37,508 nucleotides of DNA, from the NCBI RefSeq assembly GCF_012034385.1, contig NZ_JAAVJB010000026.1:1-37508 (forward strand). Direction: 5' to 3'. The notes beneath the pieces were generated by a model. It searched no databases. It was not told where the DNA came from and saw only the letters and a program-made list of their open reading frames with translations. Shown piece after piece: positions 2 to 13,057 of this stretch (within the stretch, counting starts at the first letter, position 1; every line of letters starts with the position of its first letter). Both the position numbers and the translations under genes were made by a program. The stretch is from Streptomyces spiramenti. GTDB taxonomy: Bacteria; Actinomycetota; Actinomycetes; Streptomycetales; Streptomycetaceae.

Positions 2-3000
2 GTCCCGCCCGCGCCCGGCGGCAAGGTCACCGACATCACCGGCGGCGGCGGTCTCGGCCACATCGACCTCGCCGCGCTCGCCCTGGGACGCCCGGGTCGC
101 GTCGGCCCGCCGACGACGGCGGCGCCCACCACCACGGGCGGCACACCGACGCCCGCGGTGCCCACCCCCACCGCCAAGGACGCCCCGGGCACCGTCGGCG
201 CCCCCGGCGTCAACGGCCTCAGCCCGGAGCTGCGCGACCTCCTCGGCCTGGGGAAGCCGCGTACCGGCGACGAGTTCGTGCAGCAACTCCGCCAGACCCG
301 CCCGGACCTGTTCCAGCCGCAGGTGTGGACCGTCCTCGACGGCACCCCGCAGGTCACCCCCGGCCGCACCGACGGCGGCCCTTCGGGGACCACCGTCGGA
401 GAGACCGGCGGGACCCCGCTGGACATCCGCCCCGAGGGCACCGAACTCACCACCGTGACCCGCCCCGGCGGCGCCCCCGTCTCCGGCGGCGACGTGGCGG
501 CACCGCCGCCCCCGGCGGGCGGGCCGCTCCACGCCGCGGGCGAGGGCCCCCCGAACCTCTCGGTCTCCGTCGGGCGCCACGACGTCACGGTCGGCATGGG
601 CACCTCGGGCCACCCCGAACTGCTCGGCGGCACGCCCACCATGCGGCCGGAGACGCTGCCCGGCGGTGGTTTCCGCATCGTCGACGAGTTGGGTCCGCGT
701 GCCACCCGCAGCTGGGACGTCGTCCCCGGCACGGGGAACAACCCCGTCACCGTCACCGGCCACACCGACCTCCGCCTCGCGCACCCGGGCGGGGAGGTCC
801 GGATCACCGCGCCGATCAACCAGACCGGCGACCTCACCGACGCGTGGCGCGTCAGCGACCACGGCGACCTCACCGCCGCGCCCGCCGTCCGCACCGTCGA
901 CGGTCAGCTCAGCCTCTCCACCGGCCCCGGCACCTCCCGCATGTTCGACCCGGCGACCGGCAACCACACCTTCGACGTCACCACCCTCACCGGCGGCATC
1001 GGCGACCTGCGCATCCTCCGCTCCGCCGCCGACGACGGGCTGCACCTGCGGGGCTCCGACGGCGTCCCCACGGGTGGCTGGCTGGTCACGCCCGAGGGCG
1101 GCCACTGGGTCGTCACCCCCAACCGCGGCCCCGGCGCCCCCGCGGGCGGCGAACTCCACGTCCACGCGATGGACGGCTCCCTGGTGCAGCACGCCGTCCG
1201 CACCACCGGCGGCGACCTCCCCGGCGGCTTCCTCCGGTTCCCGGAGGCACCGGGCGGCGCCCACGTCCTGACCCACCTGGACGGCACCCCCGTTCCCGGC
1301 CAGCACATCGACCCCATGCCGGGCGGCGCCCACCGCGTCGACGTCACCCACGACGGGAACGCGCGGACGCTGGTCCTGGACGGCGGCGGCCGGCACACCC
1401 ACGACGTCAACGCCCTCCCGCAGTTCGGGGCGAACGATCCCGTCCGGTTCCTGCACCGGCCCGTCGACGGCGGCGGCCCGACCGTGCACACCGGCGCGGG
1501 CGTCCCCGTGCCGCACCGCGAGATCGTGCCGATGCCCGGCGGCGGGCACCGCCTGCACTTCGGCGACACCCACATCGTCGTCGGCCCCGGCGGGCGCCAC
1601 ACCCACGACGTCACCGTCCTCACCGGCGGCGGCGGAGCACCCCACCACGTGCACACCGCCGTCGGCGACGGCTCCCTCCACCTGCTGCGCGGCAACGGCA
1701 CCGCCCCCGGCGCGACGGTCGCCCTCGACAACGGCGTCCTCCACGTCTCCCGCCACGGCACCGACCTCGTCGACGTCCACGCCCCCGGCGGCGCCTTCAA
1801 CCAGCACGCGCTCCCGCTGCGCGGTGACCTCCACGGCCAGTACGTCCAGCCGCCCACCGGCGGGAACCCGCCCCGCCTCACCGACCCCGGCGGCGCACAG
1901 GTCGGCGGGTCCTCGGTCACCCGCCTCGACGGCGACACGGGGTACCGCGTCACCCGCGCCGACCTGGACGCGGTCGTCGACGGCCACGGCGTGCGGACCC
2001 ACGACATCACCGTCCTCCCCGGCGGAGCGGGCAGCGACGTCCGCCACCTCTACCGGCCCACGGGCGACGGCCTCCCCGTGGTCCGCACCGACACCGGCGG
2101 CACCGTCACCGGCGCACATGTCGCCCCGGTCGACGGACTCGGCCACCGCATCGACTACGGCGGCGCCAACCAGGTCGTCATCGGTCCCGGCGGTCGCCAC
2201 ACCCACGACATCACGGTGCTCAAGGGAAGCGACGGCAACGACCTCGGCATGCACCTGCTGCGCCCGACCGGCGACGCCGGGGCGCCGGTGCTGCGTGCCG
2301 GGGACGGCAGCCAGCTCCCCGACAGCCATCTCACGGTCCGCCCGGGCGGCGCCGGCTTCGACATCACCGGCGGCGGCCACATCCGGCGCTTCGGCCCGGA
2401 TGGCGCCCCACAGGTCCACGCGGTACGTGCCACCGGCCTCGACGGCGCCCAGCTCAACCAGGCCGTGGAGATCATGCACGGCGGCAACACCGTGCGCCTC
2501 GTCGACAACGACCTGGTGCCGGTCCCCGACGCCCGGGCCGTCCGGGTCGACGGCGGCTACCGCGTGGACAACCCCGGTGGCGGCATCGAGTTCCGCGTCC
2601 TCTCCGACACCGGCCGTGCCACGCACGACGTCCGCGCCGGTACCGTCGACGGCACCCTCACCGTCAGGCCGAGCGGCGGCGCGGACTTCACCGTCGTCAA
2701 GCTCTCCGACGCCACCGGGAACGGCTACATCCGCCCTGGTGCCAACGGCACCAACCCCACGCTGCTCGACGGACACCTCGGCAACGTCGGCGGCGTCAAC
2801 GTCACCCGCCAGGCGGACGGCACCTTCCGCATCACCTCGAACCAGGGCGTCACCACCGGCGAGTTCAAGGTCTACGACGGCGGGGGCAAGCTCCAGACCC
2901 AGCAGGTCAACGTCCTCCACCAGGGCGCCCTCGACGGCGGCAACCTCCGACTGGAGATCACCCACGCCGCCGACGGCACCGGCACCTGGAAGGTCGCCGG

Positions 3001-5959
3001 GGCCGGTCCCGGCCTGCCGTCCTGGTACAAGTCCGGCAGCGTCGACCCCAAGGGCCTGGAGAACGGCCGCATCCGCCTCAACACCGCGGGCGACACGCTG
3101 TACTTCGAGCGCAGGTTCCTGCCCGACGGCAACCACGTGGACGTCAGGCTCCGCGGCGACGGCGGCGGGCCCGTCCGCAGCTGGCACGAGGTCGACCCCC
3201 AGGGCGGGGTGGTGCGCCACGGCGACCGCACCGTCGGCTCCACCCAGCGCAGCTGGATGGACAACGACGGCTTCATCCGCGTCCGCCACACCCAGCAGCT
3301 CCCCGACGGCGGCCACGTCGTCGCCGACGCCGGACGCCCCGCCGGACTCCTCGGCACCGGGCCCACCACCCCCTGGTACCGCTACGACGCCGACTTCAAG
3401 CTCGTCGCGCGCGGTGACCGCACCTGGGGGCCGGGCGGCGGCTTCACCGACAGGATGGTCCACCCCAGCACCGGCAACACCGTCACCGTCCACGAGAAGT
3501 GGGGCCGGCTCAACACCTTCGACAACGTCGGCCAGCTCCGCGCCGTCGAGATCAAGACCGGCGGCATCCCCTCCGACGACTTCCTGCGGCACTCCTCCCA
3601 CGGCAAGGAGACGCAGCTCTCCAAGGTGCTCGACGACGGCACCCGCCTGGACAGCATCCGGCTGTACGAGCAGCGCCCGCCGGCCTGGTGGCGGGAGATG
3701 ACCCTCTCCAACCACAACTCCCAGCTCTTCACCGAGACGCCGCACCTGCGCAACGACGGCTTCCTCCAGGTGCACTCGTGGCGCGCCACGCCCACCGGCG
3801 GCGGCGCCACCGTCGACGGCCTGCGGTTCGTCTCCCGCGACGCCGCCACCGTCGACCTCGCCGCCAACGGCGAACTCATCCGGTCCGTCCGCAAGCTCCC
3901 CGACGGCAACACCCTGACCCACGGCGACCTCGTCAAACTCCCGGACGGCGCCACCACCGTCACCCCCGACGGCGGGCGCCCCTACCGGGCCTGGTCCGAG
4001 GGCGACGGCAACCTCACCGGCCACCGCACCTTCCAGCAGGGCGACTTCACCGTCGGCCTCCCCGGCCGTGGCGACGGCGTCACCGCCAACGACATCCGCT
4101 GGCAGGACCGCTTCTCCCCGAGTGCCACGGGCGGCGGCGACTGGTACACCCCCGGTGCCCACACCGACTGGCGTGTCGCCCGCACCGGCCTCACCGACGG
4201 CTCGGTCGTGGAGTACCGCCTGCCGCCGCAGACCCGGGCCACCGACGACGCCGGCAACGCCGTGGTCATCGACCGCCGCGGCCGACTCGACCCGGCAACC
4301 GCCGACTGGACCCGGCTCGACCACCACGGCACGGTCATCGGCCGCGCCGACACCTGGGACGGCGGGAAGATCACCGCGCTGGACAACCGCACCTGGACCG
4401 ACGGCGTCAACTCCGGACCGCGCAAGCTCGCCATCGAGAACGAGATCGGCGGCAAGCGCTACTGGGACCCGGAGTCCTACCAGGACTTCACCCCCGGCCC
4501 GAACGGCGAACTCGTCCGCGAGTTCCGCATGCTCGGCGACGGCGTCACGCTCCGGGCCTGGCGCACCGCCGACGGCAACTGGACCTGGAACAAGTACGAC
4601 GCCCACGGCTCGCTGCTCGACTTCGGCGGCCACCAGGTGACGCGGGTCCGCGAGTGGACCGGCAGCCCCGGCGCCCCGGGCAGCACCTGGAAGGACGTGG
4701 TGATCGGCCCCCGCACGGGCGAGCCCGTCGTCATCCAGGAGCTGCCGGTCAAGAAGGTCACCCACACCCTCTCCGACCACCTCAGCGACCCCGCGGTCCG
4801 GCCTCGCGAGTACCACGCCACCCCGGGCGACAACCTCACCCAGAACCTGGGGGAGTGGAGGGAGTTCCACAACGGGACCGTCATCCGCTCCATGAAGAAG
4901 CAGCCCGACGGCAGCTTCCTGGAGCAGGAGATGTTCCACAACCAGCTGCGCCGCTACGCGCCGGACGGCACGGACAACGCGCTCCCCGGCTTCGTCATCG
5001 GCGAGCGGACCATCTCCGGGATCGTGCGCGAGGTCGACACCTTCGGCCGCATCACCATCCGCACCGACGGCACCGCCCCCGGCGTCAGCCAGCTCGGCGA
5101 CTCCCAGCCGGGCCTGTCCGGCATCGGCCGGGACAACTCGCCCGACACCTTCTTCCAGGAGTACCGGGCCCACAACCGGAAGTTCAAGGACCCCAACCGC
5201 CAGCAGTGGTCCTCGCCCACGCCGGGGGAGTCCGCCTACACGCCGTTCGCGCCGAAGGTCGGCTCCACCCTGGCGTCGGAGTTCGTCCAGGAGTGGATCA
5301 CCGACTTCACGATGTCCCTGGCGGTCTACGGCATCGTCGCCGCCGTCACCGGCAGCGAGTTCACCCACAACGACGTGCTCAAGGCGCTGTTCGGCGCGAC
5401 CGTCGGCGCCACCATCAAGACGGGCCTCTCCGGCATCCACTTCGCCGCCAACCGCGGCGGATGGCGCAACACCATGTCGCAGAACGACACCGGGTTCCAC
5501 CCCAACCGGCCCACCGGTGACGACAACTTCATCGGCGAGTGGGGCGGCCGTGAGAAGCCCGGCCGCTGGCGCGGTGCCACCTACGAGTTCGGCCTCGGTA
5601 TCGCCTCCGGCGCCATCGGCGGCCTCGTTGTCGGCAGCGCCAACGCGGCGATCTTCGGCGTCAAGGACGCCAACGGCAACGTCGTCTACCTCACGGGGCT
5701 CGACGCGCTCCGCGAGGGCGGCTTCGCCGCCGCCTCCGGCGTCATCGGCGGCCTGTCGACCGGCCTCGGGCGCACCGTCTTCCAGCAGATGACCGCCGGC
5801 CGCCAGTGGCACCGTGCAGGGTTCTTCGACGCAATCGTCTTCCCCGCGCTCGGTAAGCTCCTCGACAAGAGCATCGGCTTCCTGTTCATCTCGCCGACGG
5901 TGCGGCTGGACAACCCGCCCGAGTGGTACGGCACCCCCGACCCGCCGGCCGGCCAGTGA
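2..5959 (+). CDS. Giant repeat protein, C-terminal part (5' end outside window)
   Basis: The frame is open from the first bases of the window to a TGA at 5957-5959, so this is the last 1985 residues of a longer protein. The GTG at 158 is not a convincing start. The visible N-terminal end is a Pro/Thr/Gly-rich linker. From about 960 to 2640 Gly/His/Asp-rich modules follow, each with a strand reading R-H-T-H-D-V/I-x-x-L (962, 1391, 1595, 1991, 2195, 2615). From about 3000 to 5100 Trp/Gly/Asp modules follow that resemble YD/RHS-like beta repeats. The last 230 residues hold three Ala/Gly-rich hydrophobic stretches (about 5310-5350, 5590-5660, 5725-5775) and a short polar tail. No catalytic motif was recognised. 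It is followed after 63 nt by the beta-helix AAA gene. A secreted or surface protein linked to type VII-like secretion is my inference. The missing upstream part could hold the decisive domain. Confidence 0.8.
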   Translation, partial: VPPAPGGKVTDITGGGGLGHIDLAALALGRPGRVGPPTTAAPTTTGGTPTPAVPTPTAKDAPGTVGAPGVNGLSPELRDLLGLGKPRTGDEFVQQLRQTRPDLFQPQVWTVLDGTPQVTPGRTDGGPSGTTVGETGGTPLDIRPEGTELTTVTRPGGAPVSGGDVAAPPPPAGGPLHAAGEGPPNLSVSVGRHDVTVGMGTSGHPELLGGTPTMRPETLPGGGFRIVDELGPRATRSWDVVPGTGNNPVTVTGHTDLRLAHPGGEVRITAPINQTGDLTDAWRVSDHGDLTAAPAVRTVDGQLSLSTGPGTSRMFDPATGNHTFDVTTLTGGIGDLRILRSAADDGLHLRGSDGVPTGGWLVTPEGGHWVVTPNRGPGAPAGGELHVHAMDGSLVQHAVRTTGGDLPGGFLRFPEAPGGAHVLTHLDGTPVPGQHIDPMPGGAHRVDVTHDGNARTLVLDGGGRHTHDVNALPQFGANDPVRFLHRPVDGGGPTVHTGAGVPVPHREIVPMPGGGHRLHFGDTHIVVGPGGRHTHDVTVLTGGGGAPHHVHTAVGDGSLHLLRGNGTAPGATVALDNGVLHVSRHGTDLVDVHAPGGAFNQHALPLRGDLHGQYVQPPTGGNPPRLTDPGGAQVGGSSVTRLDGDTGYRVTRADLDAVVDGHGVRTHDITVLPGGAGSDVRHLYRPTGDGLPVVRTDTGGTVTGAHVAPVDGLGHRIDYGGANQVVIGPGGRHTHDITVLKGSDGNDLGMHLLRPTGDAGAPVLRAGDGSQLPDSHLTVRPGGAGFDITGGGHIRRFGPDGAPQVHAVRATGLDGAQLNQAVEIMHGGNTVRLVDNDLVPVPDARAVRVDGGYRVDNPGGGIEFRVLSDTGRATHDVRAGTVDGTLTVRPSGGADFTVVKLSDATGNGYIRPGANGTNPTLLDGHLGNVGGVNVTRQADGTFRITSNQGVTTGEFKVYDGGGKLQTQQVNVLHQGALDGGNLRLEITHAADGTGTWKVAGAGPGLPSWYKSGSVDPKGLENGRIRLNTAGDTLYFERRFLPDGNHVDVRLRGDGGGPVRSWHEVDPQGGVVRHGDRTVGSTQRSWMDNDGFIRVRHTQQLPDGGHVVADAGRPAGLLGTGPTTPWYRYDADFKLVARGDRTWGPGGGFTDRMVHPSTGNTVTVHEKWGRLNTFDNVGQLRAVEIKTGGIPSDDFLRHSSHGKETQLSKVLDDGTRLDSIRLYEQRPPAWWREMTLSNHNSQLFTETPHLRNDGFLQVHSWRATPTGGGATVDGLRFVSRDAATVDLAANGELIRSVRKLPDGNTLTHGDLVKLPDGATTVTPDGGRPYRAWSEGDGNLTGHRTFQQGDFTVGLPGRGDGVTANDIRWQDRFSPSATGGGDWYTPGAHTDWRVARTGLTDGSVVEYRLPPQTRATDDAGNAVVIDRRGRLDPATADWTRLDHHGTVIGRADTWDGGKITALDNRTWTDGVNSGPRKLAIENEIGGKRYWDPESYQDFTPGPNGELVREFRMLGDGVTLRAWRTADGNWTWNKYDAHGSLLDFGGHQVTRVREWTGSPGAPGSTWKDVVIGPRTGEPVVIQELPVKKVTHTLSDHLSDPAVRPREYHATPGDNLTQNLGEWREFHNGTVIRSMKKQPDGSFLEQEMFHNQLRRYAPDGTDNALPGFVIGERTISGIVREVDTFGRITIRTDGTAPGVSQLGDSQPGLSGIGRDNSPDTFFQEYRAHNRKFKDPNRQQWSSPTPGESAYTPFAPKVGSTLASEFVQEWITDFTMSLAVYGIVAAVTGSEFTHNDVLKALFGATVGATIKTGLSGIHFAANRGGWRNTMSQNDTGFHPNRPTGDDNFIGEWGGREKPGRWRGATYEFGLGIASGAIGGLVVGSANAAIFGVKDANGNVVYLTGLDALREGGFAAASGVIGGLSTGLGRTVFQQMTAGRQWHRAGFFDAIVFPALGKLLDKSIGFLFISPTVRLDNPPEWYGTPDPPAGQ
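1391..2590 (+). repeat. Two tandem 600-nt coding superunits
   Basis: The R-H-T-H-D-V/I motif occurs at 1391, 1595, 1991 and 2195. The spacings are 204, 396 and 204 nt, so motif pairs recur exactly 600 nt (200 codons) apart. Each 68-codon half ends in a V-V/I-G-P-G-G strand before the next motif. Looser copies lie at 962 and 2615. This is in-frame internal duplication of a beta-rich module, with protein-level identity already well decayed. Confidence 0.7.
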
Positions 5960-6022
5960 GCCGCACGAGCCCGTGAGCCACGCACCCACCCGCACCACCG
6001 AAGTCCCGAAAGGCGGTGACCG

Positions 6023-8833
6023 ATGGCCCTCACCGTCCCCACCACCCAGATAGCGGCCGATCTCACGCTGACCGTCGCCCCCCGAGGCCGCTCAGCGCAC
6101 CGGACCATCGCCCGCGCGCTGGCTGCCGCACCCACCACCGGTTCCGTCGCCGTGTCCGTCGCGGCGGGCGAGTACCACGAGAGCCTGCGCCTGGACCGCC
6201 GCGTCAGCATCTACGCAGCCGACGGCCCCGGGACCGTCACCCTCACCGCCCCCGAGGGGCGCCCGGCGATCACCGTCGCCGCCCCCGGCTGCCTCGTCAC
6301 CGACCTGATCGTCCACGGCACCGACCCCGGCGACCCCGTCGTCGTCGTCACCGACGCCGCCGGCCTCATGCTGGAGGACTGCCTGGTGCGGCACGGCCGT
6401 GTCACCGTCGCAGGCAGCCCCGCCGCCCGCGCCGCCGACCCCGGCCCCGAGATCGACCCGCCCGACCTCCGCGCCCTGCTGGAGGCCGACACGGCGGCCG
6501 GCGAGGACAGCCTCGCACCGGCGCTGGCCGCGGCGCTCGACGACCCCGTCGACGGCGGCGTCCTGGTGCTGCGCCGCACCCGGCTCCGCAACGCGCGCCA
6601 CGCCGCGCTCCACCTCGACGGTGACGCCCGCGCCCGCCTGGAGGAGGTCGTCGTGGAGTCCGTCGACGGCCTCGGGGTCGTCCTCGCCGGCGCCGCCCGC
6701 CTCACCGCCGACGGACTGCTCACCCGCCACGTCTCCGGCACCGCCCTGCGCACCCGCGGCCGGTCGCTGCTCGCCGCGCGCGAGGCGCGGCTCCTGGCGC
6801 CGGGCCGCAACGGCCTACTGTCGCAGGACGGTTCGGCCGCGCTGCTCCTCGACGGCCGCATCCACGCCGCCGGGCGCTCCGGCGTCCAGGCCGAGCACGA
6901 CTGCGAGGTCGAGATCGCCGGGACCCGGGTCGACGGTTCCGTGGGCAGCGCGTTGGCGGCCACCGACCGCGCGCGGCTGACCGCGCGCGACTGCCGGCTG
7001 CGGGAACCCGGCGCCAACGGGCTGGTCGCCCTGGGCGACGCCGACGCCCGGCTGGAGGGCACGACCGTCTCCGGCAGCGGCTACAGCGCGGTCCACGCCG
7101 CCGACCGCGCCCGCGTGACCCTCCGCGCCTGCCGTCTGGAGACCAGCGCCGAGCACGGCCTGGCCGCCTCCGACGAAGCCGGTGTCGAGGCTGAGGAGTG
7201 CGCGGTGACGGAGGCCGCCATGAGCGGGGTGCAGGTCGAGAGCGACGCCCACGTGACGCTCGCCGCGACCTCCGTCGACGGCGGCGAGCACGGCGTCCGG
7301 CTGCTGTCGAGCGCGCCCGCCGTGCTCACCGACTGCGCGGTCCGCGGCCAGCGCCGCAGCGGCGTCGAACTCGGCAGCGGCGCGGACGCCACCCTCACGG
7401 CGCTGCGGGTCGGCGACACCGGCAGCGCCGGGCTGGTCGCCACGGCCGGTTCCCGACTGGTCCTGGACGGCGGCGACATCACCGGCACCCACGGCACCGG
7501 GCTGGTGGTGTGGAAGGGGGCGGAGGCCCGCGTGCGCGGGCTGCGGGTCAGGAAGCCCGGCAAGAACGCGATCCTCGTCGCCGACGGCGCCGCCGGCAGC
7601 TACGACCACTGCGACCTGCACGGCGGCGGCTTCCCGGCGCTGCACGTCGGCGCGGACGCCAAGCCGCGCTTCACCGGCTGCCGCGTCTTCGACTGCTCCC
7701 GCGACCTGACGGTCGCGGACACCGCCGCCCCCGTCTTCGCCGACTGCCGTTCCATCCGCGTGACCACGCCCGCGATGCCCACGGACAGCCCCGACCCCGA
7801 CGGCCCGGACGGACCCACCCGGCCCGGCGCTCCCGGCGCGGCGGGACCCACCGCGCCCACCGGCGACGGCCACCGCGACGGGAACGGCCCCACCGGGGGC
7901 ACCGGCCCCTCCGACACCCGCCGCCCCTCCGGTACCGGCCGCCCATCCGGTACCGGCCGCCCATCCGGCGCCGCGCCCGCCGCCGAGGACCCGGCGGACG
8001 CGGGCGAGAGCGAGCCGCCGGCCGAGACCCTCGCGGACCTGCTGGCCGAGCTCGACGAACTCGTCGGCCTGGAGGGCGTGAAGCGGGACGTCGGCGGCAT
8101 GGCGAAGCTGATGCAGACCGTGCGGATGCGGCAGGACGCCGGCCTGCCCGCGCCGCCGCTCAGCCGCCACCTCGTCTTCGCGGGCAACCCCGGTACCGGC
8201 AAGACGACCGTGGCCCGGCTGTACGGCCGCCTGCTGAAGGCGCTGGGCCTACTGGAACGCGGCCACCTCGTCGAGGTCGACCGCAGCGCGCTCGTCGGCG
8301 AGTACGTGGGCCACACCGGCCCCAAGACGGCGGAGGCGTTCCGCCGTGCCCACGGCGGCGTCCTCTTCATCGACGAGGCGTACGCCCTGGTGCCCAGCGG
8401 CGTCGCCAGCGACTTCGGACAGGAGGCGGTGGCCACCCTGGTGAAGCTGATGGAGGACCACCGCGACGAGGTCGTCGTCATCGCCGCGGGCTACCCCGAG
8501 GACATGGGCCGGTTCGTCGCGTCCAACCCCGGCCTGTCGTCCCGTTTCACCCGCACGCTCCACTTCGCGGACTACTCCACCCCGGAGGTCGTCAGCATCG
8601 TCGAGCACCACGCGCAGCAGCACCAGTACGCACTGAGCCCGGCCGCCCGCCAGGCGCTGTCGGCCCACGTCGCGGCGATCCCGCGCGACGCGGCGTTCGG
8701 CAACGGCCGCACCGCCCGCCAGCTGTTCCAGGCGATGACGGAGCGGCAGGCCGTGCGGATGTCCGAACTGGTCACTCCCCAGGCCGACCAGCTCATGACA
8801 CTTGACGTCCAGGACGTCCCCGGCGGACCCTGA
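6023..8833 (+). CDS. Beta-helix repeat protein fused to CbxX/CfqX-type AAA ATPase
   Basis: This 936-residue protein starts at ATG 6023, 8 nt after a GAAAGG-type ribosome site. Residues about 20-580 are short repeats of the right-handed parallel beta-helix (pectate-lyase-like) kind, with recurring G-x-A-L/V and D-x-R-L-x-x-x-x-C rungs. Residues about 590-665 are a Pro/Gly/Thr linker with an 18-nt tandem repeat. The C-terminal 270 residues are an AAA module of the CbxX/CfqX/SpoVK family. Its Walker A is GNPGTGKT near residue 721, Walker B is VLFIDEAY near 780, and an arginine-finger region follows. EccA ATPases of type VII secretion carry the same AAA family but behind TPR repeats; here a beta-helix takes that place. 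It probably remodels or escorts a partner encoded by the neighbouring genes (inference). Confidence 0.85.
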   Translation: MALTVPTTQIAADLTLTVAPRGRSAHRTIARALAAAPTTGSVAVSVAAGEYHESLRLDRRVSIYAADGPGTVTLTAPEGRPAITVAAPGCLVTDLIVHGTDPGDPVVVVTDAAGLMLEDCLVRHGRVTVAGSPAARAADPGPEIDPPDLRALLEADTAAGEDSLAPALAAALDDPVDGGVLVLRRTRLRNARHAALHLDGDARARLEEVVVESVDGLGVVLAGAARLTADGLLTRHVSGTALRTRGRSLLAAREARLLAPGRNGLLSQDGSAALLLDGRIHAAGRSGVQAEHDCEVEIAGTRVDGSVGSALAATDRARLTARDCRLREPGANGLVALGDADARLEGTTVSGSGYSAVHAADRARVTLRACRLETSAEHGLAASDEAGVEAEECAVTEAAMSGVQVESDAHVTLAATSVDGGEHGVRLLSSAPAVLTDCAVRGQRRSGVELGSGADATLTALRVGDTGSAGLVATAGSRLVLDGGDITGTHGTGLVVWKGAEARVRGLRVRKPGKNAILVADGAAGSYDHCDLHGGGFPALHVGADAKPRFTGCRVFDCSRDLTVADTAAPVFADCRSIRVTTPAMPTDSPDPDGPDGPTRPGAPGAAGPTAPTGDGHRDGNGPTGGTGPSDTRRPSGTGRPSGTGRPSGAAPAAEDPADAGESEPPAETLADLLAELDELVGLEGVKRDVGGMAKLMQTVRMRQDAGLPAPPLSRHLVFAGNPGTGKTTVARLYGRLLKALGLLERGHLVEVDRSALVGEYVGHTGPKTAEAFRRAHGGVLFIDEAYALVPSGVASDFGQEAVATLVKLMEDHRDEVVVIAAGYPEDMGRFVASNPGLSSRFTRTLHFADYSTPEVVSIVEHHAQQHQYALSPAARQALSAHVAAIPRDAAFGNGRTARQLFQAMTERQAVRMSELVTPQADQLMTLDVQDVPGGP

Positions 8834-8888
8834 CCACCTGTACCCGCCACGCGAACGACCCGCCTCCCCTCGCCCCGAAAGGACGCCG

Positions 8889-9818
8889 GTGGACACCACC
8901 CCGCCCACCCCCGAGCACCGGGCACCGAAGCCGGGCCCCGGTGGCAGTTTCTCCGAGACGTTCGCCGGCAGGCCCGCGCGTCCCCGCCGCGGCCTGGCGC
9001 CGGGACGGCGGGTGTACAGCGCGCTCGCGTCCGCCGTCGCCGTCGTCGCCTGCACCGCCGCCGCGTTCACCCTCGTCGGCCACATCCCCGGCTTGAACGA
9101 CTCGCCCGCCGAGGCGTCCTCCCCGGCCACCGGACCCGCCGGCTCCGCCACCGACGACCGCGAGCCGGCTCCGCTGCCGCCGCCGGAGGTCGAGGACGAG
9201 GACGAGGAGGAAGAGGAGCCGGAGGACGAGGAGGAGGAAGAAGAGGCCGAAGAGGAGGAGGCGGAGGAAGAACCGCCGCCCCCCGCGGAGAAGCCCGCCT
9301 CCGCCGAGACGGACGCCGAGGAGGAGACCGAGGCCCCGCCCGAGGAGGACCGGGAACCGCCGCAGAAGGGCCCCGCCCCGCCCCCGCCCGTCCAGGCGCC
9401 CCCGGTCTCCGAGGAGCCCGCGCGGGAGCAGTTCCCCACCGTCAAGGGACGGCTCGTGGGCCTCAACGGCACCTGCGCCCAGCCGCGCGACGGCGGCATC
9501 GGCAGCGGCGTCATGATCACCGGCTGCAACGGCGGCGGTGCCCAGCAGTGGACCTTCCACGCCGACGGCACACTCCGGAACGGCGGACGCTGCCTGTCGC
9601 TCTCCGGCGGCTCCACCGCCGACGGGACCTCCGTGGTCATGGACAACTGCCAGGGCACCTCGGACCGGTTGCAGTGGCGCTACTCGCCCGCCTGGGACGT
9701 CGTCAACATCGCCTCCAACCAGTGCCTCGACGTCGCCAACGGAAACGCCTCGCACGGCACCCACCTCCAGATCGCCTGGTGCTCCGGCAACCCCGCCCAG
9801 AAGTGGGAACGCAGCTGA
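8889..9818 (+). CDS. Membrane-anchored acidic-stalk protein with ricin-type beta-trefoil lectin domain
   Basis: I chose GTG 8889 because GAAAGGA lies 6 nt upstream. An earlier in-frame start at 8802 would overlap the AAA gene. The product is 309 residues. A Pro/Arg-rich cytoplasmic tail leads to one membrane helix at about residues 45-66. Next comes a low-complexity stalk of Glu/Asp (coding 9190-9350) and Pro-rich sequence. The last 125 residues are a ricin B-like (QxW) lectin domain with Q-Q-W, L-Q-W and Q-K-W motifs and three C-rich loops. Such domains bind galactose-type or other glycans. The predicted topology is N-in/C-out, with the lectin held off the membrane. It is the third gene of the cassette and probably co-transcribed, 55 nt after the AAA gene. 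Confidence 0.82.
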   Translation: MDTTPPTPEHRAPKPGPGGSFSETFAGRPARPRRGLAPGRRVYSALASAVAVVACTAAAFTLVGHIPGLNDSPAEASSPATGPAGSATDDREPAPLPPPEVEDEDEEEEEPEDEEEEEEAEEEEAEEEPPPPAEKPASAETDAEEETEAPPEEDREPPQKGPAPPPPVQAPPVSEEPAREQFPTVKGRLVGLNGTCAQPRDGGIGSGVMITGCNGGGAQQWTFHADGTLRNGGRCLSLSGGSTADGTSVVMDNCQGTSDRLQWRYSPAWDVVNIASNQCLDVANGNASHGTHLQIAWCSGNPAQKWERS

Positions 9819-11846: not shown

Positions 11847-12398
11847 TCAGCGCCGGTCGCGGCGGAGGGAGGCGTCCAGGAGGCTCATCAGCTGTGCCGT
11901 GCGGTTCTTGCCCGTCGGGGCGAGGGGGTACCGGTTGAGGACGTCGATCACGGTCGGTGTGGCGCGCAGGCGTGCTTCCTCGATCAGGGCGAGCCCGACG
12001 GCGGGGTCATCGCCGGTCAGGAGCTCGCCCACCCGCGCCGCGCTCGCGGCGGCGCGCAGGATGTGGCCGACCTGGGTGGCCTTGGCGATGGGGTGGAGGT
12101 AGGCGGCGGAGGCGGCGTCGCCCGCCGCACGGGCGGCGAGCCGTGCGGGCTCGGCGTCCGCCTCTCGGGCGGCGCGGTGCGCGTCGAGCGAGGTGACCCG
12201 CTGGAGCTTGGTTCTGCGCTCGCCGTCGACGAAGGCGCGGGCGGCGTCGACGGCCGCGCGGGGCCGGGCGTCGTCCCGGTGCGCCGACTCGAAGACCGGC
12301 AGTACCTCATCCGCGCTGTGCAGGGCGAAGCGCGCGACCGCGCGAAGCTCGTCCATGGTCAGATCGAAATCGCCGGAGCCGGTCGTCACGACGCCCAT
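11847..12398 (-). CDS. Putative immunity protein, Imm-5-like
   Basis: I placed the start at the ATG reading down from 12398, where conserved-looking sequence begins; GTG at 12404 is an alternative. An extension to 12482 is open, but it lies within a repeated 67-bp element and looks non-coding. The product is 183 residues and almost all helical. Its N-terminal part reads like the family annotated as putative immunity protein (Imm-5-like): a D-E-L-R-x-V-A-x-F-A helix, then V-L-P-V-F-E, R-P-R-A-A-V-D-A-A-R-A-F and repeated Ala/Arg helices. Immunity proteins normally sit beside a toxin gene. None is visible here, so it is an orphan or has been separated by rearrangement. It converges on the flavoprotein gene. 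Confidence 0.65.
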   Translation of the reverse strand: MGVVTTGSGDFDLTMDELRAVARFALHSADEVLPVFESAHRDDARPRAAVDAARAFVDGERRTKLQRVTSLDAHRAAREADAEPARLAARAAGDAASAAYLHPIAKATQVGHILRAAASAARVGELLTGDDPAVGLALIEEARLRATPTVIDVLNRYPLAPTGKNRTAQLMSLLDASLRRDRR

Positions 12399-12416
12399 TC
12401 TCACACCGACTCGACC

Positions 12417-12483
12417 CGGCGGCCCGGACGGCCCTGTGCCCGGCGGCTTCGGCGCGCCGGCTCGACTGGCCGTCACCACCATG
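12417..12483 (+). repeat. 67-bp direct repeat, copy 1
   Basis: This is nearly the same as 15113-15180, with about 87% identity by eye and one single-base indel. Both copies begin CGGCGGCCCGGACGGCCCTG and end in a CCATG. Both lie just upstream of a minus-strand gene. Confidence 0.75.
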
Positions 12484-12497
12484 AACGAGGCTCCTAC

Positions 12498-12615
12498 CGG
12501 CGGGGAGGTGGCAGAGCTCGGTCCCCTTCAGTTCCGCCACGATGGCGTCGGCCAGGTCGGGGCCGTTGGCGTGGCCACCGAGGACGTTGTTCAAGGCCGG
12601 GATCCGGAAGAGATC
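12498..12615 (-). pseudogene. Inverted fragment of the flavoprotein gene at 10895-11809
   Basis: Read on the minus strand this stretch encodes L-F-R-I-P-A-L-N-N-V-L-G-G-H and continues through L-A-D-A-I-V-A-E-L-K-G-T. It matches residues about 46-80 of the flavoprotein encoded at 11029-11140 on the plus strand. About 95 of 108 bases agree by eye. Neither the FAD motif before it nor the rest of the gene after it is present, so this is a dead fragment. The short open frame that covers it continues into unrelated sequence. Confidence 0.8.
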
Positions 12616-12634
12616 GAGTCGTCTGTGCTGGGGT

Positions 12635-13057
12635 TCAGGCCGCAGCCGGCTCAGGTTCCGGCTCGGGGTCGGTGGCGGCGGGTACCGCGAGCTGGAGGCG
12701 GCTGCCCATGTTCAGCCGGACCTCGCCGTAGGGCTGGATGTGCATCCAGAACAGCGGGGTCAGGGCCCGCTTGTCCTCGTCGGTCAGGACGTCGGCCCAC
12801 TCGGGGTCGGCGAGCATGTCCTGGATCATGAGGGTGTTCACGAAAACGAGCGCCATGTGCAGGAGATGGAGCGCGAGGACGGAGAGTTCCTGCTGGTCAC
12901 GGCGGTTGCTGCTGAGCTCGCAGCTCGTGCCGAAGAAGATGATGTCGTTGGCGCCGTTCCAGCCCTCGACGACGTTGAGGCCCTCCTGGACCTCGCGCCG
13001 GAGGTCGCGGTCGCGCAGGTAGCGGGCAACGAAGACGGCCTTCTGGGCTGTGGCCGG
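12635..13057 (-). pseudogene. Tn3-family transposase, C-terminal remnant
   Basis: On the minus strand a continuous frame from 13057 to a stop at 12635 encodes about 140 residues. They carry the end of an actinobacterial Tn3-type transposase: K-A-V-F-V-A-R-Y-L-R-D-R-D, then E-G-L-N-V-V-E-G-W-N, then S-N-R-R-D-Q-Q-E, then V-N-T-L-M-I-Q-D and L-T-P-L-F-W-M-H-I-Q-P-Y-G. The glutamate in N-V-V-E is at the place of the last acidic catalytic residue of the family. The remaining roughly 850 residues of a full transposase are missing. The remnant begins directly after the stop codon of the monooxygenase gene and in the same frame, and ends about 20 nt from the flavoprotein fragment. Confidence 0.82.

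Follow-up and report, generated by a model that had tools for sequence, protein, structure and literature searches.

What kind of system brings together a giant repeat protein, a beta-helix/AAA+ ATPase and a membrane-tethered lectin in one short run of genes? This question is raised by positions 2 to 9,818 of contig NZ_JAAVJB010000026.1 of Streptomyces spiramenti (assembly GCF_012034385.1). The window, by which we mean the whole analysed stretch of 37,508 nucleotides, is contig C188 of a 474-contig draft genome and begins at the contig edge, inside the giant gene. In our analysis we found that this trio is the tail end of a larger conserved cluster that recurs across Streptomycetaceae. Given the observed gene content, synteny, family matches and ATPase phylogeny we consider it likely that the cluster is a variant of the type VII secretion system (T7SS) that exports a single giant effector from each locus; the beta-helix ATPase would be its dedicated chaperone or unfoldase, and the lectin a membrane-tethered component of the envelope. 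An earlier note, made from the letters of the window alone, had guessed at a cell-surface or secretion system. That guess gains support from T7SS-type genes directly upstream, from the synteny of the trio and from the giant's N-terminus, which resembles a T7SS signal.

The upstream half of the locus

A search of the S. spiramenti genome with the EccC model returned three large FtsK-type proteins with long matches, on contigs C113, C435 and C12, besides weaker partial matches. Contig C12 (16,561 bp) terminates within a giant gene, 1143 amino acids (aa) past its start MPRPDDWSALG. In S. lonarensis, which together with S. bohaiensis is the nearest named relative found (92-94% identity over ATPase pieces), the intact orthologue of the giant is one open reading frame (ORF) of 3156 aa with an identical start. 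On this orthologue C12 runs to position 1150 and the window restarts at 1173, with about 22 aa between the contigs. Since the end of C12 and the start of the window both map to the same protein, a single gene of about 3150 aa spans the gap between the contigs. Hence the very large repeat protein described in the earlier note is real, but the gene seen in the window holds only its C-terminal ~63%, the remainder being on C12.

The genes on C12 encode, in this order, a 467-aa protein with one predicted transmembrane (TM) helix and a 1564-aa FtsK/EssC-type ATPase, followed on the opposite strand by a pair of small ESX-like proteins and by a 321-aa protein; the start of the latter looks similar, by eye, to those of the small proteins. 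One of the pair (L031:11128-11442) matches the Pfam family WXG100 (PF06013) with 31.0 bits against a cut-off of 27.3. The ATPase contains two FtsK_SpoIIIE stretches (Pfam) and scores 481 bits with EssC, 352 with EccCa and 286 with EccCb, all below the equivalog cut-offs (778 for EssC), which the FtsK-type proteins of C113 and C435 clear easily for EccCa and EccCb. Of the genes that the earlier note suggested looking for upstream, WXG100-type proteins and an EccC/EssC-type ATPase are directly there; EccD is absent. PADLOC gave only AAA/FtsK-type matches (mad8 140 bits and SspH 115 bits for the ATPase), which we judged to be FtsK/HerA-like, and a defence system was dropped as a reading. A profile search of the PDB with the 467-aa family gave no match (best E 0.24). 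Further upstream, in S. spiramenti (L031:1497-3902) and in Embleya (L009:1-1002), a large transporter-like membrane protein is encoded that looks MMPL-like by eye; its position is possibly due to chance.

The recovered N-terminus gives the giant a putative export signal. In an alignment of the S. spiramenti giant with those of 19 other loci (20 of 29 available N-termini), W7, D15-P16, P18-G19-D20, F56 and G58 are invariant. The family T7SS_signal (PF21725) matches 15 of these 20 N-termini at E <= 0.01, the best at 9.7e-10, and the giant of S. clavuligerus reaches 28.6 bits, above the gathering score of 27. An AlphaFold model of the N-terminal 480 aa of the S. lonarensis protein is weak (mean pLDDT, the predicted local distance difference test score, 38.6); it has a hairpin at residues 18-112, with blocks of 46-77, formed by helices 18-55 and 59-112, between which FxG marks the turn. 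In ESX proteins the WXG motif forms the hairpin turn, the same position as FxG in the giant. The earlier note had allowed that the missing N-terminus might have an unrelated known function; what we found there is T7SS-signal-like. Behind it, residues 171-189 form a hydrophobic segment, and PGA-type motifs abound in the region that follows. The part in the window consists of beta-rich repeats and then YD-like repeats (both by eye), followed by a conserved C-terminal domain.

Conservation of the locus and its proteins

How widespread is this arrangement? As an independent probe for the locus we used the 467-aa protein of C12, which has matches in 28 of 150 genomes of the family, S. spiramenti included. 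In a class-wide sample two of 197 genomes match, S. spiramenti itself and G056 of the same genus. A single-sequence query is insensitive, so we do not claim that the locus is limited to Streptomycetaceae. Outside S. spiramenti the probe pointed to 37 places, from which 31 loci (32 places) were fetched and five places left out. Embleya NBC_00888, S. clavuligerus pCLA1 and Streptomyces NBC_00019 were added from a plasmid search with the beta-helix/AAA ATPase, giving 34 loci. In genomes G004, G020 and G031 the 467-aa gene is present in at least two divergent copies, and so is the locus where it was fetched.

The usual order is the 467-aa protein, the FtsK/EssC-type ATPase, the small ESX genes and mostly a gene of the 321-aa type on the opposite strand, the giant, the beta-helix/AAA gene and, nearby, the lectin. 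The 3' end of the giant is visible in 26 loci (22 fetched, the three named ones and that of S. spiramenti); among the 22 the giant is split between frames in G098 and G082, and giant and ATPase are degraded in G012. The other nine fetched loci comprise six cut by contig ends (G138 among them, where the giant ORF stops at the contig end), two with another orientation, in which the giant start runs out of the stretch (G103 and G022), and one degraded copy (G088b). The beta-helix/AAA gene follows the giant on the same strand in all 26 loci. A lectin is present in 22 of them, downstream and co-directional in 14, downstream and opposite in four and elsewhere in the locus in four. The earlier note had named lack of synteny as grounds for giving up its idea; what we found is a constant pair of giant and ATPase and, in 22 of the 26 informative loci, the full trio. 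In the degraded whole-locus copy of G012 (C1:2705000-2744999; L105, L106) ATPase and giant are broken up into several frames, and the ORFs for the beta-helix/AAA protein and the lectin are still present.

The giants fall into classes by their C-termini, assigned across the same 26 loci. Class I (17 loci, the window included) has one conserved hydrophobic, Gly-rich terminal domain, for which no Pfam match was found in the two members scanned (G088a and the window). In class II (NBC_00019, G085, G051, G106 and G063) all five giants end in a Scabin-like ADP-ribosyltransferase domain above the cut-off, which makes the giant an effector carrier at least in this class. The end of class III (G079, G094 and G055) differs from both, and its scanned member G079 has no family match at the C-terminus. 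The remaining locus is that of G012 with its degraded giant. Related giants reach 6.4 kaa. For the class I domain we would guess that it is possibly membrane-active, by analogy with TspA, a T7SS substrate with a membrane-depolarising C-terminal domain (PMC7456083).

The predicted lectin scores 79.3 bits with Ricin_B_lectin (Pfam cut-off 29). Ahead of the TM helix most lectins carry a juxtamembrane motif of the type FARRPxxPRRGLLPGRRVW (by eye), or LLKPGRR in one group. Given a topology with the N-terminus inside, this conserved part would face the cytoplasm, which suggests docking to a part of the machine. The acidic stalk noted earlier holds for the window, G098 and partly G056; in other lineages the stalk is collagen-like (Embleya, G004a, G020a and G031a) or otherwise rich in Pro, Ala and Gly. 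Our hydropathy script found no TM helix in the lectins of G056 and G093, and the lectin row of G088b and the second row of G098 look unrelated to the others.

Placement among type VII systems and a possible working model

Could the locus be an ordinary T7SSa (ESX) locus of Streptomyces with an unusual cargo? We consider this unlikely, although it fares best among the alternatives. Queries with EccB, EccD and mycosin gave no match in the 34 loci (some of the stretches being short) or in the S. spiramenti locus; in control loci, canonical ones of Streptomyces and Mycolicibacterium, these queries did detect their counterparts. On account of this lack of three components in the loci, membership in canonical T7SSa was rejected. 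By model scores the ATPase lies nearer to EssC than to EccC, and a tree of 43 ATPases places the 28 from these loci in a single group (Shimodaira-Hasegawa-like approximate likelihood ratio test, SH-aLRT, 99), apart from 10 canonical EccC proteins (SH-aLRT 100; a quick method with long-branch warnings). However, a canonical EccD is encoded elsewhere in all 12 carrier genomes tested (of the 28 carriers) and EccB in 11 of them. Components could therefore be shared in trans, except perhaps EccB in G079, a near-complete carrier genome without a match to it. Beta-helix/AAA genes are also found in canonical loci with EccC, EccD, EccB and mycosin on Streptomyces plasmids. The locus and T7SSa (EccA-EccE, MycP) have in common an FtsK/EccC-type ATPase, ESX/WXG100 hairpins and an AAA+ protein of the EccA clade encoded with the machine. 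They differ in the missing components, in the beta-helix that replaces the tetratricopeptide repeats (TPR) of EccA, in the separate clade of the ATPase, whose EssC/EccC-like part begins only at about residue 270, and in the neighbouring genes, which encode a giant putative substrate and, in most loci, a lectin.

Less probable still, in our view, is that the trio forms an independent adhesin or surface system, simply adjoining a T7SS, and that the giant leaves by another route. A giant of beta repeats with a Pro-rich region, a lectin and hydrophobic segments would suit such a system. In addition, the locus ATPases neighbour in the tree a second Streptomyces type without beta-helix/AAA and lectin, so that the trio is separable from the FtsK/EssC-type ATPase. 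Against it stand the T7SS-type hairpin in the N-terminus of the giant and the fact that giant, ATPase and ESX-type genes adjoin in the informative loci. The loci of this sister type, on Streptomyces plasmids (L111, L112 and L114), encode a protein divergently related to the 467-aa one (22-23% identity), and two of them also a 'putative T7SS-secreted protein'; no beta-helix/AAA gene or lectin is annotated there. That the FtsK-type ATPase is a TraB-like DNA translocase, in a cluster devoted to DNA handling or the transfer of plasmids, is very improbable: several relatives do lie on large plasmids and the protein has FtsK_SpoIIIE domains, but its TraB match is weak (17.9 bits, against 481 with EssC), its partners are WXG100 and T7SS-signal proteins, and in six genomes the locus is on a contig of 8-10 Mb.

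How does the locus compare with the more recently described variants? The survey of T7SSa-j by Garrett, Higginson and Palmer 2024 (PMC11217815) describes, in the passages cited here, T7SSb and T7SSc-j as systems with an EssC-type ATPase and a WXG100 partner, modular substrates beside the machine and lineage-specific accessories, as in our locus. The accessory set of 467-aa protein, beta-helix/EccA protein and ricin lectin has no counterpart in those passages. T7SSd, the one new variant from actinobacteria in the survey, has a kinase and a large Ig-like protein at its core; with single-sequence queries for its membrane Ser/Thr kinase and its large TsdI protein we found a kinase-like match in three of the 34 loci and no match to the large protein of Rothia. 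EssB, EsaA and YukD gave no matches in the loci, with queries from a single Enterococcus locus and without a second T7SSb positive control. With actinobacterial 'putative T7SS-secreted' proteins that carry PF21725, and with polymorphic toxins, the giants have in common an N-terminal signal of the DPTPGD type and the Scabin-like tips of one clade. They differ in measuring 2-6.4 kaa, in being tied to a putative chaperone of their own and usually to a lectin, and, in class I, in ending in one conserved domain and not in exchangeable toxins. No description of the locus was found in the open-licence PMC literature, most subscription papers being outside this search.

The beta-helix/AAA protein (936 aa) scores 85 bits with Beta_helix, 62 with AAA and 52 with AAA_lid_6 in Pfam. 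Its best NCBIfam models are SpoVK (259 bits), CbbX (235) and EccA (232), all under their equivalog cut-offs. For EccA (TIGR03922) the score is 232.4 against 466.65 bits, with the match confined to the AAA half, so the protein falls short of EccA proper. By its AAA and AAA_lid_6 domains and the GY sensor-1, a signature described in PMC10659427, the predicted protein belongs to the EccA/SpoVK/CbbX group of AAA+ proteins. The AAA and lid domains and the GY sensor-1 are what it has in common with the clade as presented in the cited part of that paper; a score under the curated EccA cut-off and the tie to one giant partner set it apart. The same part names EccA as a chaperone of T7SS whose N-domain can be either TPR or a beta-helix; the fusion as such is therefore already published. 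Among 268 plasmid records with a match to the beta-helix/AAA ATPase, 30 matches were listed and 10 annotated Streptomyces plasmids picked from these were opened; the gene lies near EccC/FtsK-type T7SS genes in all 10, canonical loci included. One of these T7SS loci (EccCa, WXG100, beta-helix/AAA), on the plasmid of S. coelicoflavus NBC_00357, contains a single 33-kb gene for 11,009 aa (L015:3461-36490), and other T7SS plasmids encode giants of about 3,000-8,700 aa.

Taken together, what we rate as new is a candidate T7SS-type locus with its own membrane partner, an EccA variant, a lectin and a giant cargo. On balance we lean towards a distinct Streptomycetaceae T7SS subtype without EccB, EccD or mycosin of its own. 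In this subtype each locus would export one giant effector by means of an EssC-type ATPase and a single new membrane protein; a beta-helix AAA+ chaperone would thread the giant, a membrane lectin on a stalk would receive or display it, and there would be ADP-ribosyltransferase-tipped and membrane-active versions of it. From the anatomy of the proteins and from knowledge of their families we infer export, chaperone action, the topology and role of the lectin and the activity of the effector as follows. Of a type VII-like secretion locus, the trio would form the substrate side; the machine, encoded on C12, might consist of the FtsK/EssC-type membrane ATPase, the 467-aa partner with its one predicted TM helix and the ESX-type hairpin proteins. 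The substrate would be the giant (~3150 aa). Its N-terminal helical hairpin, with FxG at the turn, would be the T7SS-type signal; the putative hydrophobic segment comes next, then repeated PGA-type motifs in a Pro-rich region, and after long beta repeats the protein would end in an effector or anchor domain. As EccA-type chaperone of the locus, the beta-helix/AAA protein may bind the substrate through its beta-helix, which replaces TPR in this role, and its AAA ring could keep the giant competent for export or release it to the EssC-type pore. The lectin might sit in the membrane with its cytoplasmic juxtamembrane motif toward the machine and its ricin head on a stalk spanning the wall, where it could hold or guide the exported giant at the envelope or bind a target glycan. 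The C-terminal domain of the giant is possibly membrane-active in the clade of the window and presumably acts as a Scabin-like ADP-ribosyltransferase in the sister clade.

Several points weigh against this export model. Neither the 467-aa nor the 321-aa protein has a family match in Pfam or NCBIfam scans, the WXG100-type protein stays under the NCBIfam TIGR03930 cut-off (27.2 against 44.85 bits), and its partner has no Pfam WXG100 match. The T7SS_signal score of the S. spiramenti giant itself (18.8-20.8 bits) lies under the gathering score, and the Embleya giant has no match at E <= 0.1. Both structure models of the giant, of its N- and C-terminal parts, are poor; the model of the C-terminal 985 aa (three close sequences) has a mean pLDDT of 26.5 and is unusable. 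A lectin was not seen in four of the 26 loci: S. clavuligerus (where the 11.5 kb before the 467-aa gene hold none either), G089 (whose contig begins at the 467-aa gene, which leaves the upstream side outside coverage), G004b and G031b. The C-terminus of class I shows conservation and not polymorphism, in which it is unlike an antibacterial toxin, and no immunity gene was identified for the giants. Nor is the fusion confined to T7SS, for the S. spiramenti genome holds another beta-helix/AAA gene beside encapsulin genes; contig C43, moreover, encodes an EccA-like protein that matches the N-terminal part of the EccA model, which also speaks against exclusivity. The second beta-helix/AAA ORF (851 aa; G000:C66, L123:9247-14932) lies next to two SrpI-like family 2 encapsulin shell genes, which encode cyclic-nucleotide-binding domains, and is oriented divergently to them.

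If the export model holds, a locus that recurs in this form, combining one machine with a single giant cargo, a chaperone and in most cases a lectin, might serve as a simple system for how a T7SS handles proteins of 2,000-6,400 residues. It would also allow one to ask what an EccA-type ATPase actually does, the function of EccA being called unknown in the cited part of PMC11217815. Moreover, the locus bears on the purpose of type VII export in streptomycetes, be it contact-dependent antagonism or construction of the hyphal envelope, and it would add a subtype in a genus that is unmentioned in the main text of the 2024 survey, where the word 'Streptomyces' is absent.

Features of the trio in the window

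The coordinates of the trio, and of the part of the giant on C12, are collected in the table.

Table. Features of the giant, ATPase and lectin genes; positions are those of the window unless a contig is named.
Feature	Position	Strand	Remarks
Giant, N-terminal 1143 aa	contig C12, L031:13132-16560		
Giant, C-terminal 1985 aa	2..5959	+	ORF open at 5' end
Conserved hydrophobic/Gly-rich C-terminal domain of giant (class I)	5234..5956	+	RWRGATYEF and several GxxxG motifs; matched in 16 other loci
Beta-helix/EccA-SpoVK-type AAA+ ATPase, 936 aa	6023..8833	+	
Predicted right-handed beta-helix half of ATPase	6023..7762	+	residues 1-580 (approximate)
AAA+ and lid domains of ATPase	8042..8818	+	residues 674-932; Walker A GNPGTGKT, Walker B FIDEA and GY sensor-1 read by eye
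Predicted membrane-tethered ricin-type lectin	8889..9818	+	GTG start
Juxtamembrane motif of lectin, SFSETFAGRPARPRRGLAPGRRVY	8946..9017	+	by eye; common to lectins of other loci
Predicted single transmembrane helix of lectin	9012..9068	+	P0003 residues 71-89; hydropathy
Acidic stalk of lectin	9069..9446	+	
Predicted ricin-type beta-trefoil domain of lectin	9447..9806	+	

The three co-directional ORFs and the 63-nt gap between the first two were described exactly in the earlier note, and the 55-nt gap is correct with the GTG start of the lectin, which is preceded by GAAAGGA. An alternative in-frame TTG at 8802 would make the lectin gene overlap with the ATPase gene. The G+C content at third codon positions (0.92-0.96) supports coding in all three genes. 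In comparison with S. lonarensis, differences at codon positions 1/2/3 number 25/11/124 in the beta-helix (residues 1-600), 36/28/76 in the lectin and 164/130/302 in the giant, a third-position excess in every gene that is strongest in the ATPase. Giant and lectin are fast-evolving, with amino-acid-changing and silent codon changes about equal in number.

Downstream of the trio no T7SS gene was found among 20 ORFs scanned between 9955 and 36604. Beyond the lectin the gene calls differ between the window, S. lonarensis (L007) and S. bohaiensis (L008), and we therefore take the lectin as the boundary of the locus. Further on, at window positions 11847-12856, lies an Imm5-like putative immunity gene (PF21805) that adjoins a remnant of a Tn3 transposase.

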